From a virus, in IMG/VR virus record IMGVR_UViG_3300043466_000383, positions 1 to 21,811 of that record: a stretch of 21,811 nt of DNA; one strand, written 5' to 3'. The position numbers were made by a program, and so were the translations under genes. Shown here in pieces: positions 1,015 through 21,014 of the stretch; the stretch's first letter is position 1, and every line of letters starts with the position of its first letter. The notes under the pieces were generated by a model. The model saw only the letters and a program-made list of their open reading frames with translations, ran no database searches and was not told the origin of the DNA.

Positions 1015-2067
1015 TTATGCTAGTACTGTAGCGGTAAACAGTTTGTCTACTTCTAGTAGTATTGGCAAACCTGCTGACTGTACACCGTACACTCTTGAAC
1101 GTCTGCGCTCATCTGTGTAACTGTAGTAAATGAATTTACCTGTACGTACTACTGGGTTATCTTCATCAATCAACTGTGGTACACCTGCATAAGCCATCAT
1201 AAAGGCTGGGTTAGGTGGTAGTATGATTATTTTCTTTGGGTCGATGTAAGGCTGTAATGTACCGCTTGCATCTTCATAATATTGGTCATAAACCCATATA
1301 CGGTAGTTGCAAGTACCTGCGCTAAACATACCCATGTAATCAGCACCTTCGGTATTCTTAACTGGGCTTACAATGTCTGTAAGTGCTATTCTACGGATAT
1401 CCGCTTCGGCTTGGAACTTAGTGTTAGCTATCATTGCCTGATATGCAGATGAACCCATCAACAAATCAAATGTACCTGTACCAACTTTACCAACCGAACG
1501 CATAAGGCTACCCCATGTGCCTAAGAAAGATGATATACTTACTGTATTGTCTGCAAAGTTATGCGCTGCATTGTAAGCAAGTATCATAGATGCTTTACGC
1601 TGAAAATCTATGTTCTCGGTAGATGTAGCAGTTACAATACCTGTTTGTAGGGCTTGCGCTCTTTGCAACTCATATCTACGCTCAATCTTATCAGCAAGCA
1701 TTTGCATTTTCTCTGTACCCTCATTAAGGATAGCAGTTACTACACCTGCATCAACTGAACCGCTACCAATTAGACGGTCATACATACGCAATGAATCAAC
1801 TGTGAAGTTTTCATCAAAGTAAGTAGGGTCGAAGTCTTTTTGTGTAGACTTTTCAAACTTGTTATGATTGCCTTCTGCATTGCGAAGTACATCGACTGCA
1901 ATCTTTTCTTTACCTCTCTGTACTTCGATACTTACGTAACGTGTAGCAGTTGGGGTAGTGTCGGGAAACCATGTAGCAAGGAACGTAGTAGGGCGTAGAC
2001 GCTCTTTCCACAATGCTAAAAACTTGGTTGTTATTGTTGACCGTATTAATGAACTGGGTATTGCCAT
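1015..2067 (-). CDS. Major capsid protein, lambda gpE family, 350 aa
   Basis: A 350-residue protein starting MAIPSSLIRSTITTKFLALW. Its length and layout match the lambda gpE (HK97-fold) family: an N-terminal arm, an early segment TFLATWFPD, a region GSVDAGVVTAILNEGTEKM with a long helix down to the stretch RYELQRAQALQTG, and a C-terminal domain containing KIIILPPNPAFMMAYAGVPQ and a C-terminal strand SAGLPILLEVDKLF. It follows the gpD-like decoration gene by 24 bases, the same order as lambda D-E. It would form the icosahedral shell. The hairpin just downstream may set it apart from the minor head genes in dosage. The family call is firm from both order and sequence character. Confidence 0.88.
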   Translation of the reverse strand: MAIPSSLIRSTITTKFLALWKERLRPTTFLATWFPDTTPTATRYVSIEVQRGKEKIAVDVLRNAEGNHNKFEKSTQKDFDPTYFDENFTVDSLRMYDRLIGSGSVDAGVVTAILNEGTEKMQMLADKIERRYELQRAQALQTGIVTATSTENIDFQRKASMILAYNAAHNFADNTVSISSFLGTWGSLMRSVGKVGTGTFDLLMGSSAYQAMIANTKFQAEADIRRIALTDIVSPVKNTEGADYMGMFSAGTCNYRIWVYDQYYEDASGTLQPYIDPKKIIILPPNPAFMMAYAGVPQLIDEDNPVVRTGKFIYYSYTDERRRSRVYGVQSAGLPILLEVDKLFTATVLA

Positions 2068-2565: not shown

Positions 2566-2892
2566 TTATTTTAAGTTTACGTTTTCAATTGCCTCTTTCC
2601 AAAAATCTTCCTCTTGTTTAGCCTCTGTAGTTGCTGGGGCTTCAACCTTTGCAGGTGTTACGCTTGCAGGGCTACCATTTTCAGCATTAAGCATAAACTG
2701 TGCTTGTGCTGCTTTCAGGCTAAACTCTGCCATTTGCGTAGCAGATAGTGCGCTACCTTCTGTGATACCTTTTTTGCAAGCCTCCAAATCAAGGTGCGCA
2801 AATACCATAAATGAATTAACTCTATCACGCTCGCTGGCAAGAATAGCATTTACCAATTCTGGGTGCTGTGCCTTTAATTCTGTTACTGTCAT
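2566..2892 (-). CDS. Probable nested scaffold protein from an internal start within the protease gene, 108 aa
   Basis: Within the protease frame, Met217 (ATG 2892) begins MTVTELKAQHPELVNAILAS, a helical, charged segment that looks like a scaffold domain. The roughly 30 bases before this ATG are almost all A with some T and C and contain no G, which is the kind of unstructured A-rich leader that Bacteroidota use for translation start in place of a Shine-Dalgarno site. In lambda the scaffold Nu3 is likewise made from an internal in-frame start in the protease gene C. The start context is seen directly; separate production of this 108-residue protein is inferred. Confidence 0.45.
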   Translation of the reverse strand: MTVTELKAQHPELVNAILASERDRVNSFMVFAHLDLEACKKGITEGSALSATQMAEFSLKAAQAQFMLNAENGSPASVTPAKVEAPATTEAKQEEDFWKEAIENVNLK

Positions 2893-3540
2893 TTTATTGT
2901 TTTTTATTGTTATTGTTGTATTAGCCTCTTTTATTTCAGGTATTGCGAACGGCATTACTTCATATCCCGATTGTGCTGCCATTGCATAATGTCCTTTTAG
3001 TTCCGCTTGCATTGTAGGGGTAATATTTACCACCTTATTTATTAGCCCTATTTCTTTAGCTTGTTTCGCTGTAAGCAATACATCTATTCGGGTATCAGTA
3101 GAAAACACATCATCCATTGATTTGCCTGTAATAGATTGAAACAAAGTAGTATTAACCTTTGCTTCTAATGCCTCACGAAGTTTACCGTTAACCCTGTTTA
3201 ATGATGCCCACATTTCAGCAGTCATTATGTTAGGGTCTTTCTCTACCCAAGATGGATAAGCAGCCCTATGCACTAATATTTCCGATACATCTAACGCTTC
3301 GTTATCTTGGGTATAAGCTAACATAAATGCACCCATACTATGTGCCTTACCGTCAACCTTTATTTTAGTTGCTTTGGTACGCTCTGAAAGTTTGGCAATC
3401 ATACCAAATGTACTTTCAGGACTGCCACCGCCTGTATTCATACGTATAACTACATCTTCATCTTTATACGCCTCTAGCTGCGCTATAAAGTTAGCAGCCG
3501 ATGCGTCATAGAGGTAATTATATAGTATTATTTCTTTCAT
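2566..3540 (-). CDS. Prohead protease, ClpP/S14-like, with C-terminal scaffold-like region, 324 aa
   Basis: The chosen start is ATG 3540 (MKEIILYNYLYD...), because an upstream ATG at 3573 would add a phenylalanine-rich leader not seen in the family. Residues about 25-175 form a ClpP-type fold: NTGGGSPESTFGMIAKLSE, the serine nucleophile Ser68 in KAHSMGAFML, the histidine His91 in ILVHRAAY, and a probable acid Asp153 in TRIDVLLTAKQAKEIGLIN. Residues about 217-324 are helical, charged and alanine-rich, like scaffold domains fused to lambda-type proteases. The enzyme would mature the procapsid by cutting scaffold and itself. It follows the glycosyltransferase block and is separated from it by the oppositely oriented regulator gene. 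A weak minus-strand promoter-like pair (TTTG, 21 bp, TATTTTAC) precedes it. Confidence 0.85.
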   Translation of the reverse strand: MKEIILYNYLYDASAANFIAQLEAYKDEDVVIRMNTGGGSPESTFGMIAKLSERTKATKIKVDGKAHSMGAFMLAYTQDNEALDVSEILVHRAAYPSWVEKDPNIMTAEMWASLNRVNGKLREALEAKVNTTLFQSITGKSMDDVFSTDTRIDVLLTAKQAKEIGLINKVVNITPTMQAELKGHYAMAAQSGYEVMPFAIPEIKEANTTITIKNNKMTVTELKAQHPELVNAILASERDRVNSFMVFAHLDLEACKKGITEGSALSATQMAEFSLKAAQAQFMLNAENGSPASVTPAKVEAPATTEAKQEEDFWKEAIENVNLK

Positions 3541-3581
3541 TCGCTTGTAAAATAACGCTACGAAAAAAAACATTGCAAAGG

Positions 3582-3614
3582 TTTGCCGATATTGTCGGTA
3601 AATTATTAATTTTG
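3582..3614 (+). promoter_or_regulatory. Bacteroidota-type promoter of the small regulator gene
   Basis: The -33 element TTTG (3582-3585) and the -7 element TAATTTTG (3607-3614, matching TAnnTTTG) are 21 bases apart. The ATG of the regulator lies only 3 bases after the -7 element, so the message probably starts at or next to the ATG and is leaderless. The operator-like palindrome 3584-3600 fills the spacer and overlaps the -33 element. Confidence 0.65.
3584..3600. promoter_or_regulatory. Operator-like imperfect palindrome, copy A
   Basis: TGCCGATATTGTCGGTA is an imperfect palindrome with half-sites TGCCGA and TCGGTA. It sits between the -33 and -7 elements of the regulator promoter, where a bound repressor would block RNA polymerase. 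A second copy lies at 18964-18980; with four further bases (AATT) on the right side the two stretches agree at 19 of 21 positions. The most likely binder is the regulator encoded at 3618, which is an inference. Confidence 0.6.
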
Positions 3615-3617
3615 CGT

Positions 3618-3791
3618 ATGGATAAGAAAGATGTAAGAGTAAACAACATAGGCACTAAGCAGCATAATGAGGTTAAGAATATAGCATCTCATGTAGGCTG
3701 TAGTATGGGTGAATTGATAAAAAAGAATTTGCATGTTATAATCCAGCAGTACCCAAAGGACTATCGGGAATATCCTTGCGACAAAGACTAA
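3618..3791 (+). CDS. Small ribbon-helix-helix-like DNA-binding regulator, 57 aa
   Basis: A 57-residue protein encoded against the surrounding genes. The start at ATG 3618 was chosen because it directly follows a good promoter; longer in-frame versions would begin upstream of the transcription start. The pattern is a short strand (DVRVNNIG), helix A (TKQHNEVKNIASHVG), a turn (CSMG) and helix B (ELIKKNLHVIIQQYP), the usual Arc/MetJ-like ribbon-helix-helix plan, followed by a short charged tail. Such proteins bind palindromes as dimers or higher. Its promoter contains the palindrome described at 3584, suggesting autoregulation, and a twin site precedes the tail operon. Its 3' end overlaps the end of a convergent glycosyltransferase gene by 56 bases. 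The fold is inferred by eye. Confidence 0.65.
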   Translation: MDKKDVRVNNIGTKQHNEVKNIASHVGCSMGELIKKNLHVIIQQYPKDYREYPCDKD

Positions 3792-4314
3792 CCCATGCGC
3801 TGTTAGTTGTATTTTTTGGGCTTGTATTTCCGCTATGTATAGTGGCTAAAAATCCGTTAATATATGGATTAATATGTGTAGTAGCTTTTTTGCAAAACAT
3901 ATAATCCTCTCCTATGTGCATGTCAGCAAATTTATTGCGCTCCCAAAATTCTTTTCGGTATGCCATTGTAGCACCCCATACTATTTTGCTACTATTTGAC
4001 CCTATATATTTATACCCACCTGTAGCATAAAATTGTGATAGACCTACTATGTCGGCTGTGGGATTGTCTTGCAACTCTTGTACACATTTACTTACCCAAT
4101 CTGTAGCATACACATCATCACTATCCATGTGAACAATAATATCCCCAATAGCTTTAGATACTAATTTATTTCGCTTAGTTCCTATTATACTATCTGAGTA
4201 GTCAAATAGATGTTCTACTATGTATGGGTAATCTTGCAACTTTCCAATAGTAGAAATACGCTCATTAAATACTTGCCTGTCTTGCGTAGTAGGGGTTACT
4301 ATTGATACTGTCAT
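3736..4314 (-). CDS. Family-2 glycosyltransferase, third of three, 192 aa
   Basis: A 192-residue single-domain GT-A glycosyltransferase. Visible motifs are the N-terminal strand VSIVTPT, IIGTKRNKLVSKAIGD before the nucleotide-sugar site, the acidic metal-binding motif MDSDD in IIVHMDSDDVYATDW, an acceptor-side segment GATMAYRKEFWERN, and the catalytic-base region HIGEDYMFCKK. There are no membrane segments, so it should act in the cytoplasm. It resembles its upstream neighbour (IGDKRNRLLNAANGE against IGTKRNKLVSKAIGD), suggesting an old duplication. The start overlaps the previous glycosyltransferase stop by 4 bases (ATGA). Being between portal and protease genes, it would be made with head proteins; the sugar and the acceptor cannot be read from sequence. 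Confidence 0.85.
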   Translation of the reverse strand: MTVSIVTPTTQDRQVFNERISTIGKLQDYPYIVEHLFDYSDSIIGTKRNKLVSKAIGDIIVHMDSDDVYATDWVSKCVQELQDNPTADIVGLSQFYATGGYKYIGSNSSKIVWGATMAYRKEFWERNKFADMHIGEDYMFCKKATTHINPYINGFLATIHSGNTSPKNTTNSAWVSLCRKDIPDSPLGTAGL

Positions 4315-4856
4315 TTATTAGTAAGGTAAACGTAATAGTAAAGTGTATCGGTTATTTCTACTTCTGTTTTTAACATTCCGCTTTTGCAAATCTGCATAGC
4401 CCAATCAGTATCTTCACCAAAGTTTTTAGTAGGGAAAGTAAACTGTTTAGCTATTACTGACCTTATTACATTTAGGTGGTTTGGCGGTCTATAATATACG
4501 TTATCTTTTTCAAAATAACTATTGTATTTTATGGAATGTATAAACCGTTTAGGGTTATGTCCGTTTGTAGTAATTACACCGTTTAGACTGCAACAATCTG
4601 GGCTACTTTCTAACGCCTGAGTAATGCAGTAAATATAATCTTCGCTTATTGTATCGTCATCATCAATAAATACAAGATACTCACCATTTGCAGCATTTAG
4701 CAATCTATTGCGCTTATCCCCTATAGTTGCATTTTTAATATCACATACTATTATTTCAATCTCATTATCACCTATCTGCTTACGCAAATCAGATAATAAA
4801 GATTGTAACATTTCGTGCCGTTTTTCTATTGTAGGTATTAGTATGCTTAGTAACAT
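4311..4856 (-). CDS. Family-2 glycosyltransferase, second of three, 181 aa
   Basis: A compact GT-A glycosyltransferase of 181 residues. It has a textbook N-terminus (LLSILIPTIEKRHEML), the segment IGDKRNRLLNAANGEYLVF, a strong acidic metal site IDDDDTISEDYI, and the catalytic-base region FGEDTDWAMQI. No membrane anchor is seen. The gene starts within one base of the stop of the first glycosyltransferase and overlaps the next by 4 bases, so the three are translationally coupled. The acceptor could be a virion protein, phage DNA or a host surface molecule; co-expression with head genes favours a virion protein, but this is inference. Confidence 0.88.
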   Translation of the reverse strand: MLLSILIPTIEKRHEMLQSLLSDLRKQIGDNEIEIIVCDIKNATIGDKRNRLLNAANGEYLVFIDDDDTISEDYIYCITQALESSPDCCSLNGVITTNGHNPKRFIHSIKYNSYFEKDNVYYRPPNHLNVIRSVIAKQFTFPTKNFGEDTDWAMQICKSGMLKTEVEITDTLYYYVYLTNK

Positions 4857-5497
4857 TATATTCCAAAGTTTATAGCTTTCCTATTCTTAAATGTAACCCT
4901 ATCAACCATCATGTAACTATCATTCTGCGCATTTACCTCATCTTTTTTATTCACTCCTGTACTGTAGTGGTTATGTGGAAATAATAAAGGTAGTTCAATC
5001 GTACACTTTAGCAACTTAGCTACATTTGCTAACTCTTCATCACCGTACATATGGTAGTATTCGGGGTGGTAAATATGACCGCCTACTTTGTCATAAAAAG
5101 CCCTATCCATAATGGGTAATGTCATTATAAATGGTTGCAAACCATCATTAATTTTTACCGCAAAACATTTGTTTCCTGTAGTGCCAAAAAGTAAATCCTT
5201 ATCCCATCCTTTAGGGCAACTAAAATCATCAGATACCGCTACTAATATATTTCCACTTGCTTCATGTGCTGCCGCATTTACTTGCTTTACCAATCCGTTT
5301 TCAGGGTGAATAATGCGTATAGCCTTAGTACTTCTGAATGTTTCCATATACTCACTAAGGTATGGGTCATTCTGTGCAAGGCACAATATATACTCTATGT
5401 TTTCGGCATATACCGCTTTTGACATCCATTCCAAATAGCATTGTAATGCTAACTGTGGGCGTTTATAACTTGGGTGTAAAATGCTAATTTGTTGCAT
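4856..5497 (-). CDS. Family-2-like glycosyltransferase, first of three, 213 aa
   Basis: A 213-residue protein starting MQQISILHPSYKRPQLALQC, a GT-A-like nucleotide-binding start. Further motifs are LVKQVNAAAHEASGNILVAV, an acidic site VSDDFSCPKGWD in the place of the DXD metal motif, and MYGDEELANVAKLL as the likely catalytic-base helix. It is more divergent than the two glycosyltransferases that follow and could have a different donor or acceptor. It overlaps the end of the portal gene by 14 bases and the next gene by one base, which ties the glycosyltransferase block to the head operon. It is predicted to be cytoplasmic, since no signal or membrane segment is visible. Confidence 0.78.
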   Translation of the reverse strand: MQQISILHPSYKRPQLALQCYLEWMSKAVYAENIEYILCLAQNDPYLSEYMETFRSTKAIRIIHPENGLVKQVNAAAHEASGNILVAVSDDFSCPKGWDKDLLFGTTGNKCFAVKINDGLQPFIMTLPIMDRAFYDKVGGHIYHPEYYHMYGDEELANVAKLLKCTIELPLLFPHNHYSTGVNKKDEVNAQNDSYMMVDRVTFKNRKAINFGI

Positions 5498-9014: not shown

Positions 9015-10239
9015 TTTCGTAGTATGTGATTAACCTATCTCTTGGTATTATAAATATCTCGCTTAATCCTATCATGTTAGCATCTAACAACTCATTCAAA
9101 AACTCATCTGTAGGGTCTGCACCGTATAGCCTTTGTGTTAGGTTAATCGGGTCTGTATCTTCTTCTAATCTAAATGTAACCTGTAGCCTACCATCTGCCG
9201 CAACATTATAAAGATTATTTATAGCAAAGGTAATCAATTCCGTAATACCCGACACGCTATCATAATCGGGTATATACCCATCGGCACTACCACCTGTAGC
9301 AGTTTGTAAGCTATCAAGATTAATTATATAACCGTTATACGCATTTGCAAGTATATCGGCTATGGCAATCGCATCGGGTCTATTCCTGTAACTGCCATCT
9401 GTATTAGTTACTGTAGTCTTAGCCATTGCGGTAATAATAGCCCCTACATTTGTTTCATACTGCCGCTTTTGTTTCCTGTTAAGTATAGTATCTAAACTTC
9501 TATTTAATGTATTGATTTGCTGTAAAAATAGCATCATTCTAGCCTTTACCGTTTGCGCAAAGTTATAAGGGGCTTCAATCATTCTTTGTGCTAATCTTAC
9601 TGCTGCTGCTGGCTTTGCTATAAGATTGTTAAGCCCTGTATTGGCTGCGGTAAAAGCATTAAAGTACACTTGTGCATCTAATGTAGTTCCTACGCCATTT
9701 ACGCCATCATTATACATCTTTGATAGATTACCCTTATACTCTTGTACATCGGCTAATGTTGGGGTCTGTATATCCACTGCATACGTATCGGCTTGCAACT
9801 TATCAATAGCAAGTTTATCCGCTACTATCTTACTTTGTGCATCTTTTTTTGTTGGTTTTTTGCCTATAACCGTTGCAATCATTACCCCTGTAATATGGCT
9901 AACATTATAGTCTTTATTGTCGTATGTTAGTTCTAATGGCTGTACATACAATGTGCCGTACATCGGGTGCTGAACTGTCCAATACTTTGGATTACGTGCC
10001 GATTGTTTAAACCGTTCCATTAAGTCCAAATGATTATCCCCATCAAAATATACATCTAACGAATACCGCTCACCCTTTACATTCTTACGCTCAACTACTG
10101 TACCTGCTACATTTGGAAATTCAAATAACGACATATTGAACGCCTGCTGAATTTGAGTAGGTATGTACTTCGGTCGGTATTCTGCACCGTCACCCATTTT
10201 AATAACGTATGGCTGTGCCATCTTTTCAATCCAACTCAT
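9004..10239 (-). CDS. Mu gpN-like tail/baseplate protein with DNA-circulation-type N-terminal domain, 411 aa
   Basis: A 411-residue protein. Its first 120 residues (MSWIEKMAQPYVIKMGDGAE, then YSLDVYFDGDNHLDLMERFKQ and KYWTVQHPMYGTLYVQPLELTY) match the DNA-circulation N-terminal domain known from Mu gpN and relatives: the HPxxGxLxVxP block is clear. The rest is largely helical, with a middle region rich in basic residues and a C-terminal part about positions 330-411 that looks beta/alpha mixed. In Mu-type tails this protein sits at the tube-baseplate junction. It overlaps its neighbours by 4 and 11 bases. The name DNA circulation is historical; a structural tail role is more likely here. Confidence 0.72.
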   Translation of the reverse strand: MSWIEKMAQPYVIKMGDGAEYRPKYIPTQIQQAFNMSLFEFPNVAGTVVERKNVKGERYSLDVYFDGDNHLDLMERFKQSARNPKYWTVQHPMYGTLYVQPLELTYDNKDYNVSHITGVMIATVIGKKPTKKDAQSKIVADKLAIDKLQADTYAVDIQTPTLADVQEYKGNLSKMYNDGVNGVGTTLDAQVYFNAFTAANTGLNNLIAKPAAAVRLAQRMIEAPYNFAQTVKARMMLFLQQINTLNRSLDTILNRKQKRQYETNVGAIITAMAKTTVTNTDGSYRNRPDAIAIADILANAYNGYIINLDSLQTATGGSADGYIPDYDSVSGITELITFAINNLYNVAADGRLQVTFRLEEDTDPINLTQRLYGADPTDEFLNELLDANMIGLSEIFIIPRDRLITYYENAN

Positions 10240-10976: not shown

Positions 10977-10984
10977 TATGTTTG
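10954..10984 (+). promoter_or_regulatory. Bacteroidota-type promoter of the lipoprotein gene
   Basis: The -33 element TTG (10954-10956) and the -7 element TATGTTTG (10977-10984, matching TAnnTTTG) are 20 bases apart. The predicted transcription start is near 10988, giving a leader of about 15 bases before ATG 11003, with an A-rich run just ahead of the start codon. The -33 element lies inside the beginning of the divergent minus-strand gene. Confidence 0.65.
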
Positions 10985-11002
10985 CACAAAACTAAACTAA
11001 AA

Positions 11003-11329
11003 ATGAAACACACACTACTTGCAATCGCTTTAATCTCTTTTGTTTCTTGTGGCAAACAGCCTGCTTGCCCTCCTGTTAATCCACCTGTACCTCCTAAAAT
11101 AAATAGTGGGTGTTGGTCATCTTCGTATGGCTCACTCTGCTTTACTGACAGTTTAATGTCGGTAGACAGACAGCCATTCTATCCTTATGCCGTATCTACT
11201 GATTCAATCTACTATCTGCTTGATGACGGTAGCAAGTTTGCACAATACGGTTATTTTTTGGTAAACGATACACTTAGATTGTACCCTACTTTGCACCACC
11301 CAAATGCACCGTTTACCTACTGGCGTTAG
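11003..11329 (+). CDS. Small lipoprotein encoded against the tail operon (moron-type gene), 108 aa
   Basis: A 108-residue protein on the plus strand. ATG 11003 is chosen because the in-frame TTG at 10982 lies inside the -7 promoter box. It starts MKHTLLAIALISFVSCGK: a short basic end, a hydrophobic core and a lipobox cysteine at residue 16, so it should be a lipoprotein exposed to the periplasm or outer membrane. The mature N-terminus is proline-rich (CGKQPACPPVNPPVPPK) with three more cysteines, then a small beta-rich domain follows. With its own promoter and a position between two baseplate blocks it looks like a moron gene. It could exclude superinfecting phages, alter the host surface or take part in lysis; the sequence does not decide. 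It ends with 4 bases of overlap against the convergent fibre gene. Confidence 0.72.
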   Translation: MKHTLLAIALISFVSCGKQPACPPVNPPVPPKINSGCWSSSYGSLCFTDSLMSVDRQPFYPYAVSTDSIYYLLDDGSKFAQYGYFLVNDTLRLYPTLHHPNAPFTYWR

Positions 11330-16958: not shown

Positions 16959-17366
16959 TTATAGTTTGATTAATTGACCCGCACCTGACATTTTAATTGT
17001 CATAGTAGCAGTATTGGTAGCGTCTTGGATATCGCCAACAAACGTACCTGTAGCACCCATTGTAACGCCCGATGCAAAGGTATAAGTAAAGTTAGCTTCT
17101 AGTGGACTAGCTGCCACCGCTACTATCTTCTGCATGTCCTCAGCTACATTATCATCACTTGATATAGTAGCCTCAAACATCCACCTAAAACGATTTTTAA
17201 TGATGATGTTTTGACCGCCACCATCTAAGCCGTTAGTATCGTCATTGTTACGGAAACCACCCAAATCACGAGTAGCATCTTCATTACTTTTAGCACGTAG
17301 AGAAAATACCCCTACCGTATCATGTGCTACCGATATATCGACAATATCACCACCTATTACTGCCAT
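16959..17366 (-). CDS. Tail tube protein, Mu gpM-like, 135 aa
   Basis: A 135-residue protein next to the sheath gene, as gpM follows gpL in Mu. It is almost all beta strand: MAVIGGDIVDISVAHDTVGV, an FSLRAKSNEDATRDLGGF segment, a central RFRWMFEATISSDDNVAEDM and a C-terminal strand TNTATMTIKMSGAGQLIKL. This fits the small barrel proteins that stack as hexameric rings to form the tube inside the sheath. It starts at ATG 17366, 24 bases after the sheath stop, and is followed by the chaperone gene. The call rests on position, length and beta pattern. Confidence 0.78.
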   Translation of the reverse strand: MAVIGGDIVDISVAHDTVGVFSLRAKSNEDATRDLGGFRNNDDTNGLDGGGQNIIIKNRFRWMFEATISSDDNVAEDMQKIVAVAASPLEANFTYTFASGVTMGATGTFVGDIQDATNTATMTIKMSGAGQLIKL

Positions 17367-17390: not shown

Positions 17391-18908
17391 TTATTCTCCG
17401 AAATATGAATTAGCAAATGCCATTGTACTTGATATGTTAGCTACACCTGTACGCTCATAAGCAAACTCGGTATCTAAACGATTTGGATTAGTAGAATTTA
17501 CTACAACTGTAGTATTTTCTATCATGTAGCTAGCCCTTGCAATCAACGCCCTGCGCTCAAACTCATTCGCTAATGCTGCAAGTAGTTGTTTCCATTTCTT
17601 AGGGGTAATAGTATTACCTACCGCTACCTGCGCTCCATCGCTAGTTATAACCTTGTCAACTACATATAGCAATTCTCTAAGGTAGTAAGCATAACGGATA
17701 TTCCAATCAACAAACAAATCACGTACAAATCTAAACTTAGGGTCTGCATCGCCTATAGGTCTGTAAGTCGTTACCATGTCTTGTATCTGATAAACACCTG
17801 CAACCAAATCAACTGTAGAACAACCTAATTTAACGATTGCATCACGTTCGTTATATTCACTCATCACACCTATCACACCGTCTGAAGGTACTGGCATATC
17901 AGGGTAATTTAACCCACCTGCACCGATATGCGGATTGCTTTGCGCTATTGGTGCATACAATGCTACCATGTTTGCAGCCGCCTCAAAATCAAACCCTTTA
18001 CTATTTGGTGCTGGTGAAATTGCTATTGTGCAATTATTACGCCTTGCACTTGTAAGGCTTGATGGATTAGCCAATGTGCTACCTGTAAATACTGTAGCTG
18101 GGCGCATTATAATACCTGTATAGCGACCTGTTGGGGCTGTCTGTGAAGGTATGCCGTTCCATGTTTCAAACGCTGATAATGTAGTACTATCGCTGCCTAT
18201 TGCATTGATAATCATATTATCCCAACGATTACCAATCATTGCAAGTGCTGCCGTTACTGATGGTGTGCCACTTGCTGCAGTTGTTTGTGCTACTGCATAC
18301 GTTATACCTGCCGCATCTCCGTTTGTATCTACGCTCAATTCAAATGCTGATGACAATCCACGCCACTTAGCAGCTAAATTACAGAGTGTTACTGGACTGT
18401 CAAGCGTTGCATTTACTGGTACATTCAAAGAACTGCCAACCATATCAAATATCTTTGCTGATATGTCTGCTGGCGTATCTCCTGTTTCAATGTTTATATC
18501 ATAACGTACGTCTGTAGCCCTTCTACCTGCAATAACAATCGTATGTGTTACATTGCCTGTAGCCGTTCCTGTTGGTGTAATTGACTTAATGTTATTAGCA
18601 CTACCTACCGCTTTTTCAATAGGGTAAACTATTGTAGGAATACCACCAACACCACCATTTTGAGGGCGCAAAATTGACATTATGCGATGTGCTGGCGAAC
18701 CATAACCAAACAAATCACCTGCCTGCTGTGCCGATGTTACAGTATAAGGTACTGTAAAATCAAAACCGCTTTCATTTTGCTGATTTATTTGGCTTAATAT
18801 GGCTATTGATATTGGCAAGTTAGCAGATGTGGTAGCTTTATTGCCTGCACTAACATTATAGCCGACTACTCTACTTAACCTTTCTGCTCCTACTCCTATA
18901 TTTGACAT
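17391..18908 (-). CDS. Contractile tail sheath protein, Mu gpL-like, 505 aa
   Basis: A 505-residue protein, the first gene after the terminase pair and the start of the tail module. The layout fits the Mu gpL sheath family: an N-terminal segment LPISIAILSQINQQNESGFD with VTSAQQAGDLFGYGSPAHRI, a variable beta-rich middle domain (about residues 100-210), and a conserved C-terminal part with PIGDADPKFRFVRDLFVDWN, ITPKKWKQLLAALANEFERR and a final strand domain ERTGVANISSTMAFANSYFG. Its presence shows the tail is contractile. The 75-base gap upstream holds operator copy B and other repeats, so expression of the tail block may be controlled there. Confidence 0.88.
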   Translation of the reverse strand: MSNIGVGAERLSRVVGYNVSAGNKATTSANLPISIAILSQINQQNESGFDFTVPYTVTSAQQAGDLFGYGSPAHRIMSILRPQNGGVGGIPTIVYPIEKAVGSANNIKSITPTGTATGNVTHTIVIAGRRATDVRYDINIETGDTPADISAKIFDMVGSSLNVPVNATLDSPVTLCNLAAKWRGLSSAFELSVDTNGDAAGITYAVAQTTAASGTPSVTAALAMIGNRWDNMIINAIGSDSTTLSAFETWNGIPSQTAPTGRYTGIIMRPATVFTGSTLANPSSLTSARRNNCTIAISPAPNSKGFDFEAAANMVALYAPIAQSNPHIGAGGLNYPDMPVPSDGVIGVMSEYNERDAIVKLGCSTVDLVAGVYQIQDMVTTYRPIGDADPKFRFVRDLFVDWNIRYAYYLRELLYVVDKVITSDGAQVAVGNTITPKKWKQLLAALANEFERRALIARASYMIENTTVVVNSTNPNRLDTEFAYERTGVANISSTMAFANSYFGE

Positions 18909-18921
18909 AATTATTTGCTTT

Positions 18922-18937
18922 GGGTGTAAATTTACCC
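18922..18937. promoter_or_regulatory. Imperfect inverted repeat upstream of the sheath gene; weak promoter candidate
   Basis: GGGTGTAAATTTACCC contains the palindrome GTAAATTTAC and, with a two-base bulge, longer arms GGGT..AAA and TTTACCC. On the minus strand its core TAAATTTA lies about 18 bases before the sheath ATG and resembles the -7 box, but its last base is A in place of the G of TAnnTTTG, and no clear -33 TTG is at the right distance. It may be a second control site or a weak promoter needing an activator. Confidence 0.3.
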
Positions 18938-18963: not shown

Positions 18964-18980
18964 TGCCGACATTATCGGTA
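18964..18980. promoter_or_regulatory. Operator-like imperfect palindrome, copy B
   Basis: TGCCGACATTATCGGTA has the same half-sites as copy A at 3584-3600 (TGCCGA and TCGGTA), differing at only two of 17 bases; the next four bases on the right (AATT) are also the same. It lies right after the terminase stop codon and about 55 bases before the sheath start, at the boundary between terminase and tail module. A regulator bound here could stop or start transcription of the tail genes. Confidence 0.6.
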
Positions 18981-18983
18981 AAT

Positions 18984-21014
18984 TTATTTAATCATGTTAC
19001 AGTAGTCTATCCAACTAAACTCCTTACCCTTTTTCATCTTAACCCCAAATATATACACTGCTATATCTCTTACCGCTATGTTATATATCCTACAATCTAG
19101 CATGTGGTTAGCTACTTTACTGTGCTTTTTCTGCCATTTGCTAACCGTTTCACCTACACTATTGACCGATATAATGCACTCTTCCGCCTCGAAATGGTCA
19201 AAGAAATTAGCTTTATTGTAAATGCCATCATTAGATATTTGGGGAAAATTCATAAAGCCTATCGGCTGGCTATCCTCTGACTTATCCCACTTTAAAGCCA
19301 TATACTCACTATTTATGTCCTTAATAGCATTTACTTCCAATATCCACATATCTGAACGGCTTACCCCCCTTTTAAACAGTGCCACATCTGCCGCTTTACG
19401 CTTAAATTTACTTTCTGTATCTCCTTTTATACCTAAAATATAATGGTTTGTTCTATCCATAAACTCGTAAGCATAGGTAGTAAAGTTAGAAGTATCTAAT
19501 CCGCTTACTACTATTTTCATTTGCCTACCTGTATCTACCTGCCAAATCGTATCTAATACCTTTTCATATTGTTTCCATACGCTGTTTTCTTTTCCATATT
19601 CATAACTCATCTTAGGTCTATCCTTATTAGCACTGTCGCCACGCTGAAACGTACCAATACTGCCATGAATGACGCTCCAACTTGCACCCAACCTATCCCA
19701 TGCAACTACTTCATAGTCCAACCTTGCGTCATCTATCATCCCGTTCAAATCCGCACTGCATGTTAACATAACTATATCACCATTGCCATACTGTCTGCTT
19801 AAACTTTCGGGAATAATACCCGATGGATAGTCTTGCCTGTTTCGCTGTATGTTCTTACTACTTGTTTCTATAGCCTCACCTTCGTAACATTCACCTAATA
19901 CAGTATTTGCAAATACTTGATATTCTCGCTCATCTCGCTTATCTCCTTCGGGGTGTGCCTTAATCCAATCTCTAACACTATGTTTCCAATCAAACATCCA
20001 TAAAGGGGCGTATAATGACGATATATGATAGCTGTAATATTGCGGTCTTTGCGCTTTTGCTGTTGGCTGCCATATACCACCATTTAAAAAATCATATTTA
20101 TTTTTATCACTAAACCAACCGCCACACTTATAGCAACAATAACCAACGCTTTTTTCATCTAACTCACCGCTTATAGGGTCTACATCCCACGTTATACCGC
20201 CCCTATTATTTGCCACCTCACCTGTCAATGGGTTAATAATTTCGCCCTCTCTTATATCCCACTTAATCAATATAGGCTCGTGGCAACATTGGCACTCTAT
20301 GTAGTAGTGCCGCCTATCACCTTCAAGATATGCAGGTAGTATAAGCGACTTATGTTTTTCCATTGGCGTACTTATAAGAAACATCTTATAACTATCCTTG
20401 TAGGCTGCTGCACGTTTCTCAATTAATTTCAATAAATTACCACTTGTTTTACTCTCACCTTTCATCTGGTCTAAGTCATCAAGTAATATATATTGCAAAT
20501 CTACCTGAGCAATATTTTTATGATTGTTTGCACTACCTATTGACACATAACCGCCTGCAAAATCCTTCTTAGTATCGGTATCTCCTGTTTTCCTATTTGC
20601 CCTACGTGCTGATTGTGAACGTATGTAACTTGCTATGCCTGCACTATCAATCATCTTATCTACACGTTCACTTGCCTTTGGTATAAGGTCGGGGCTACCT
20701 ACCATAAGGTAACTATTAGCAGGGTTATTAACAATCATCCAACCAATAGCAGGTACTAGCACTGTGGTACTAAATCCAATCTGCGCCCCCTTCATTACCG
20801 CCACTACCCTAGCATCATCATACGGTGAAAACCTATTTATAATTTCCTTTGTATATGGTGTTTGGCTGTACCGTAATGCTCCTGGTCTTGGCTTATCCAT
20901 TATCATATTAGCCTCTGCCCAATCAGCAGGTAGGATAGTGGATATTTGCGCATTACCTTGCGTTAATATCCGTTCTAATTGCGGTAAATAAAGTAGGTTG
21001 TTGTCGTTAAGCAT
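18984..21014 (-). CDS. Terminase large subunit, lambda gpA (GpA) family, 676 aa
   Basis: A 676-residue packaging motor protein. The N-terminal ATPase has the GpA-type Walker A region VVAVMKGAQIGFSTT (Lys75 to Thr83), a Walker B YILLDDLDQM (about 174-184) and the coupling motif LISTP (213-217). A zinc-binding insertion is seen as C241-x-x-C244 and C294-x-x-C297. The C-terminal nuclease has acidic residues in SADLNGMIDDARLDYEVVAW (Asp422), VVSGLDTSN (Asp507) and NHMLDCRIYNIA (Asp640), matching the metal site of the family. It cuts concatemers and pumps DNA through the portal. It starts 2 bases after the small subunit stop. GpA-type terminases usually precede a lambda portal; here the tail module comes between. 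Confidence 0.92.
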   Translation of the reverse strand: MLNDNNLLYLPQLERILTQGNAQISTILPADWAEANMIMDKPRPGALRYSQTPYTKEIINRFSPYDDARVVAVMKGAQIGFSTTVLVPAIGWMIVNNPANSYLMVGSPDLIPKASERVDKMIDSAGIASYIRSQSARRANRKTGDTDTKKDFAGGYVSIGSANNHKNIAQVDLQYILLDDLDQMKGESKTSGNLLKLIEKRAAAYKDSYKMFLISTPMEKHKSLILPAYLEGDRRHYYIECQCCHEPILIKWDIREGEIINPLTGEVANNRGGITWDVDPISGELDEKSVGYCCYKCGGWFSDKNKYDFLNGGIWQPTAKAQRPQYYSYHISSLYAPLWMFDWKHSVRDWIKAHPEGDKRDEREYQVFANTVLGECYEGEAIETSSKNIQRNRQDYPSGIIPESLSRQYGNGDIVMLTCSADLNGMIDDARLDYEVVAWDRLGASWSVIHGSIGTFQRGDSANKDRPKMSYEYGKENSVWKQYEKVLDTIWQVDTGRQMKIVVSGLDTSNFTTYAYEFMDRTNHYILGIKGDTESKFKRKAADVALFKRGVSRSDMWILEVNAIKDINSEYMALKWDKSEDSQPIGFMNFPQISNDGIYNKANFFDHFEAEECIISVNSVGETVSKWQKKHSKVANHMLDCRIYNIAVRDIAVYIFGVKMKKGKEFSWIDYCNMIK

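Follow-up and report, generated by a model that had tools for sequence, protein, structure and literature searches.

What a 57-aa gene that runs against every large gene of a phage could be doing directly before the head protease gene, and why a short sequence from its promoter returns in front of the tail sheath gene, are the questions raised by this locus. The DNA analysed, hereafter called the window, is a 21.8-kb virus record representing a genome fragment, in which every large gene is located on the minus strand: terL, the sheath gene, tail and baseplate genes, the portal gene, three glycosyltransferase genes, the head protease gene and the capsid gene. The genes on which the argument turns are:

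1015–2067, minus strand: major capsid protein (MCP); matches phage major capsid proteins and served as query for finding relatives
2566–3540, minus strand: head maturation protease of the ClpP type, with which the head operon begins (CLP_protease in Pfam, 1e-12; head maturation protease in PHROGs)
3618–3788, plus strand: gene of the 57-aa putative ribbon-helix-helix (RHH) regulator, in the gap that precedes the protease gene, antisense to the head operon and diverging from it
17391–18908, minus strand: tail sheath, first gene of the tail operon (PHROG 165, 4e-76)
18984–21014, minus strand: terminase large subunit (terL) of the GpA family, upstream of the tail operon (Pfam GpA_ATPase and GpA_nuclease)

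For the protease, the start at MKEIILYNYL (3540) was taken; a longer form starting with MFFF would begin upstream of the predicted TSS. The small gene, which at its 3′ end runs into the end of a glycosyltransferase gene, was previously unannotated, and the clade to which it belongs consists of uncultivated phages.

Operators and promoter geometry

The promoter consensus of Bacteroidota consists of TTTG near −33 and TAnnTTTG at −12 to −5 (PMC6847099, PMC9723704). The following elements can be recognized in the window:

3584–3600, no strand: operator 1, TGCCGATATTGTCGGTA, two TRCCGAYA half-sites, in the spacer of the RHH promoter and just upstream of the head-operon promoter
18964–18980, no strand: operator 2, TGCCGACATTATCGGTA, between the terL stop, which precedes it by 3 nt, and the sheath ATG, which follows after 55 nt
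3582–3585, plus strand: TTTG, −33 element of the RHH promoter (consensus from PMC6847099)
3607–3614, plus strand: TAATTTTG, −7 element of the RHH promoter; the ATG follows after 3 nt, and a nearly leaderless mRNA is predicted
3576–3579, minus strand: TTTG, possible −33 element of the head-operon promoter
3547–3554, minus strand: TATTTTAC, weak −7-like element of the head operon, 29 nt from operator 1, an offset as at the sheath promoter
18927–18934, minus strand: TAAATTTA, resembling a −7 element, in the sheath (tail) promoter at 29 nt from operator 2; it is also conserved in G001, G002 and G009

Each operator is an imperfect dyad of two TRCCGAYA half-sites about one central base, with 9-bp spacing. 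The first-pass annotation had reported both 17-mers, an agreement over 19 of 21 positions when they are extended, and promoter elements enclosing the first copy; these are indeed present, with a spacing of 21 nt between TTTG and TAATTTTG, and the 17-mer is found nowhere else in the window. Its placement of the second copy in the gap before the sheath gene was also correct, this gap being bounded by the sheath gene and terL. A consensus scan of the window with at most three mismatches gave 5 matches as compared to 0.16 expected, a number reached in 0 of 100 shuffles; these are the two operators on both strands and one weak match at 17336–17352. A motif spread through coding DNA, which would have spoken against an operator, was not encountered in the window or in a 46-kb relative.

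Operator 1 is also situated upstream of the protease and thus of the head operon (start 3540, minus strand), between divergent promoters, which the first reading missed. The earlier idea of a switch over the small gene itself and the tail operon is supported by the sites, their conservation and the RHH fold, and it was incomplete in omitting the head operon. To judge from its position, operator 1 would be shared by two divergent promoters and would have to serve the head operon as well; binding of the RHH protein and the sign of its effect at the late promoters are inferred.

The geometry differs between the two types of promoter. RHH promoters possess a perfect TAnnTTTG box in 15 of 22 sequences, mostly 3–5 nt before the ATG, which therefore leaves little or no leader, and the operator is found within 25 bp directly upstream of that box. 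The box of G002, TAAATTTG, differs from TAATTTTG at the free nn positions only. The gaps before protease and sheath contain a −7-like box at one operator offset per phage, identical within a phage (29 nt in the window, 25 in G006, 27–28 in G011, G017, G022 and G027; range 23–32), even though the DNA between operator and box is usually unrelated across the two loci. These late boxes are nearly all imperfect, whereas those of the RHH promoters are mostly perfect, and the operator that falls inside the RHH promoter, in the −33/−7 spacer, is positioned just upstream of both late promoters. Conserved sites upstream of late operons at fixed promoter spacing, the pattern expected for a late activator, are thus found. 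Since the −33 box is weakly defined in F. johnsoniae (PMC6847099), a poor late −33 box is no proof of activator dependence.

The 57-residue protein

The RHH character of the protein emerged only from an alignment of 19 homologues, since searches with the single sequence (Pfam, PHROGs, NCBIfam, PDB) gave chance matches only, such as Integrin_beta (0.057) and RNAP alpha (0.067). The homologues align as strand-helix-helix with the consensus EIRIxxV...LxxxLxNIAxxxGxTxxxLLKPxLRxIxxSYP, and AF2 run on this alignment predicts an extended segment 1–12 and helices 13–26 and 30–44 with a pLDDT of 86.5, as compared to 65 for an earlier model from two sequences only. The strand followed by two helices that characterizes the MetJ/Arc/CopG superfamily was recovered by AF2, Foldseek and the profile. 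Nearly all top Foldseek matches in the PDB are RHH proteins, i.e. PutA52 with DNA (probability 0.96, TM 0.81 on target), VapB12, ORF56, FitA with DNA, ParG, AmrZ and Arc; none of the Foldseek E-values is below 0.001, as expected because there are only 57 residues. The family profile matches the chains of ORF56, AvtR (4hv0, E 0.028), VapB12 and FitA, next to some chance matches to designed repeat proteins. By model and profile the protein is an RHH protein, as the first-pass annotation had supposed. Half-sites that are repeated or inverted some 8–11 bp apart, as in RHH operators, occur in the window, G011 and G022.

The PHROG 582 family of 'Arc-like repressors' matches 7 of the 19 members at E values up to 1 (best 8e-5), and the window protein itself has no PHROG match. 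A type II antitoxin of the RelB/VapB/FitA kind was considered and rejected: no toxin gene adjoins, and the RHH gene stands alone between a glycosyltransferase gene and the head protease gene, both divergent or convergent to it. No relative of the 57-aa protein was detected by tblastn in phages and plasmids or by scans of genome contigs. An MCP scan of genome contigs gave one contig, from a metagenome-assembled genome, and no prophages, and the phage collection contains no cultured clade member with the RHH gene.

Conservation and divergence of the operators

Near relatives, found by searching with the DNA, the 57-aa protein, the sheath and terL, encode the protein with 93–100% identity. The 46-kb genome of G001 has exactly two strong sites, at places homologous to those in the window, and in a further relative, G009, operator 2 is retained with two changes, one of them bringing the dyad closer to perfect symmetry. 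In G002 (49.8 kb; RHH 93% identical, its gene differing by 9 synonymous base changes and by 7 base changes in 4 replaced codons) both sites are present and both have changed from TRCCGATA to TRCCGTTA, one site in its right half and the other in its left. Copying of one site onto the other cannot explain these changes, as it would alter the same half; the parallel change is as expected if one protein reads both sites. Repeats of TGCCGTTATTGCC at 39 kb in G002 were discarded as operators because they are part of a cysteine-rich coding repeat. The early-region gene concerned (L055, about 19030–19722; 39.0–39.7 kb in G002) encodes a long Cys-rich repeat (CRYCRYCSSCSSC...) from TTGCCGT/TTGCAGT DNA repeats. 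Another observation on close relatives is that the portal-to-RHH cassette (3736–5497 in the window; 10688–13927 in L051) is swapped among them, with three glycosyltransferases in the window versus a different gene set in G001 and G002.

A capsid-alignment scan provided 78 loci, and about 20 distinct phages carry an antisense ORF of 57–116 aa, with a single or tandem RHH, directly before the protease. Tandem forms of 96–116 aa occupy the same antisense position in L098 (7992–8315), L101 (7978–8268) and L140 (7630–7980). In G006, of which the sheath is 47% identical, a 61-aa antisense ORF is found at the same place; its promoter contains a different palindrome, AATGTATACATT, and a second copy of this is located 49 nt upstream of the sheath ATG.

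Such pairs were sought systematically by taking the stretch from the RHH start codon to that of the protease gene and searching it against the whole contig, for which 11 independent clusters with both gaps were available. In 10 of these, the best match elsewhere in the genome is the gap upstream of the sheath gene (30–114 bits), a score attained by 0 of 355–958 control windows. The pair in G023 is weak and positionally correct (23.5 bits, reached by 2 of 585 windows). In G002 taken by itself the sheath gap is outscored by a low-complexity coding repeat; it ranks first in the cluster mates G000 and G001. In a 12 by 12 matrix of gaps against sheath regions the diagonal stands out with high scores and the other cells are at background, apart from those between the relatives G000 and G002, and the gap searches gave no convincing third operator copy. 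The RHH gene is present in the gap in 11 of 11 clusters having both the pair and an RHH. Related phages retain the motif at both places, as the earlier reading required of a true operator, and the same logic extends across 11 clusters.

The operators themselves differ between phages: AGTCCCAAAGTTTGGGACT with a AGTCCCAAA dyad in G011, AGCATCCAA(W)TTGGATGCT in G017, TTCCGTTATCAACGGAA in G027, and in G022 a 61-bp block with GTGGGACA repeats every 11 bp; the related RHHs of G012, G014, G018 and L090 have one operator type in common. As far as the sequences tell, every phage species has its own operator, paired with its own RHH gene and presumably bound by its product. Post hoc, half-sites with CC/GG were seen to accompany an Arg, Lys or Gln as third residue of the strand (R7 in the window) in 14 of 14 single-RHH phage types, and to be absent where this residue is Val or Leu (G006, G026). 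This pattern, which was not predicted beforehand, hints at direct read-out of the half-site. A side observation in G027 (L193–L195) concerns near-copies, at 4393–4412 and 31758–31777, of the 20-bp GATAGAAGTATAATnATTTT stretch between RHH start and operator, possibly other promoters of the same class.

The presence of the RHH gene also goes with gene order. In phages that have it, the sheath gene precedes the protease gene by 13–17 kb and head and tail form separate late units. By profile, the antisense RHH is present in 11 of 14 split-order clusters versus 0 of 13 clusters in which protease and then sheath follow in one contiguous stretch (Fisher, about 3e-5). In cultured Ficleduovirus and Cellulophaga relatives, likewise, the protease, MCP and sheath genes form a single block, and an antisense RHH is absent. 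The 'Arc-like repressor' of Vibrio phage R19R, beside the MCP gene, was dismissed as a parallel, being co-directional between MCP and neck genes and thus another arrangement. Two of the split-order exceptions, lacking the antisense RHH by profile, were examined for a shared block: G039, with at most a weak shared head/tail block (23 bits), and G033, with a strong 35-bp block upstream of both sheath and protease (63 bits), where another protein may serve in place of the RHH. In G033 (L207 and L208, 16.1 kb and 29.0 kb) a 56-aa ORF after terL (9352–9522) could be a replacement regulator. In one sheath gene of the survey, G045:C1:21734-23245 (L225), the search tool gave one in-frame TAA, for which stop-codon reassignment or a sequencing error is possible.

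Proposed switch, rival explanations and known systems

The explanation that we prefer, with a probability of roughly 0.6, is that the 57-aa RHH protein is an autorepressed late regulator that switches on the head and tail operons via the two operators. The phage would be a lytic myovirus of a Bacteroidota-type host, as inferred from its promoters and related phages. Its strong, nearly leaderless RHH promoter (TTTG-N21-TAATTTTG) would fire early, and RHH dimers would then bind both operators through their half-sites. At operator 1 the protein would block its own promoter, because the site fills the −33/−7 spacer, and from operators 1 and 2 it would act on the divergent head promoter and the tail promoter. 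At the late promoters the operator ends about 28 nt upstream of the weak −7 box, i.e. at about −40 to −56 from the predicted start, which is the expected place for an activator. One protein could thus turn on two separate operons together while limiting its own amount.

The main rival keeps the same protein and sites and reverses the sign, the RHH holding head and tail promoters off early as an SvtR-like timer, with release by dilution in replicating DNA or by removal. Activation would not be the default, as RHH proteins mostly repress (PMC3325190); SvtR represses its own gene and also that of a tail fibre, in the latter case from a site about 80 nt ahead of the promoter core (PMC5569661), and half-site arrays such as that of G022 would allow spreading. 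Nevertheless, both late promoters are probably activated, and we favour this because at both loci, and in every phage, the late operators keep a fixed distance from the core promoter and stay out of it, though the sheath copy was free to move in, because the late core promoters are weak, with mostly imperfect −7 boxes, and because activation needs no further factor for release, whereas no candidate anti-repressor for the rival was identified. Repression with later release is consequently judged unlikely, though it deserves to be taken seriously.

Explanations in which the RHH plays no role fare worse. The repeats could be intrinsic terminators, each a hairpin with a T-run, at which the operons upstream of sheath and protease end, and elements of G011, G017 and G027 do fold at −6 to −10 kcal/mol on the late strand and are followed by T-runs. 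Inspection of folding and T-runs led us to reject this very improbable reading, since the elements of G000, G006, G014, G020, G022 and G029 are unlike terminators (0 to −4.7 kcal/mol, mostly lacking a stem followed by a T-run), the gene upstream of the sheath runs the opposite way in G006, G011, G020 and G027, and terminators require neither a phage-private sequence nor the parallel half-site change of G002. The strong block of G033 in a phage that lacks the antisense RHH would fit late promoters read by another host or phage factor, with the RHH encoded there by coincidence. Such a coincidence is hardly to be expected when the RHH gene accompanies the pair in all 11 clusters, the operator overlaps the RHH promoter, and operators diverge between phages in step with the RHHs, as the one type of G012, G014, G018 and L090 illustrates. 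A chance repeat, for which nothing but the AT-rich intergenic setting can be adduced, is practically refuted by conservation, and the shuffle, gap-search and matrix results are also contrary to it.

Whether the autorepressed activator constitutes a clade-wide, previously undescribed late module of Bacteroidota phages is a bolder proposition, to which we give slightly less than even odds: a leaderless antisense RHH gene would repress itself and activate head and tail through exactly two operators, and fast co-divergence of regulator and operator would provide each species with a private, insulated lock and key.

Several known systems resemble parts of this scheme. SvtR, a small RHH protein of the virus SIRV1, has a virion structural gene among its targets: it binds at the promoter of a tail-fibre gene as well as at its own (PMC5569661), and a comparable combination is predicted here for the window protein. 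It differs in belonging to an archaeal virus with archaeal promoters, in being a proven repressor, and in not being encoded between divergent head genes; no close sequence relationship was seen in this analysis. We know of no paired head and tail operators for SvtR. AvtR of the archaeal virus AFV6 has two RHH motifs in one chain, like the tandem forms of L098, L101 and L140, versus the single RHH of the window protein. Arc and Mnt of phage P22 are phage RHH repressors, of which Arc (1baz) was a fold match; their operator also lies between divergent promoters, and what they govern is the antirepressor/immunity region in a temperate phage rather than promoters for head and tail. P2 Ogr and Mu C are early phage proteins that act at dyad sites ahead of poor promoters to switch on several late operons; their folds differ from RHH and, to our knowledge, neither autorepresses from a shared divergent site. 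The RHH protein AmrZ of Pseudomonas aeruginosa, like the regulator proposed here, represses itself and activates another promoter (PMC3325190); AmrZ is a host protein, and its activation site is 282 bp upstream. New here are the bacterial host group, the shared divergent operator, the head/tail pairing and the species-private operator.

The open-access papers searched yielded no description of the mechanism by which late genes are turned on in Bacteroidota phages, and the present analysis offers a specific candidate regulator with its two sites. It also gives a spotting rule for unannotated phages, namely a small antisense ORF before the head protease and a repeat before the sheath. The matched regulator-operator pairs, at least 11, form a natural set for learning how RHH proteins choose their DNA and in what way a phage can alter the specificity of such a switch while keeping it functional.

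A second conserved antisense gene is present within the tail cluster of the window (10982–11329, plus strand) and is kept at the same place in G001 and G002. It encodes about 108–115 aa with a lipoprotein-like signal, MKHTLLAIALISFVSCGKQPACPP, and its product may be a membrane lipoprotein, of a moron or superinfection type.
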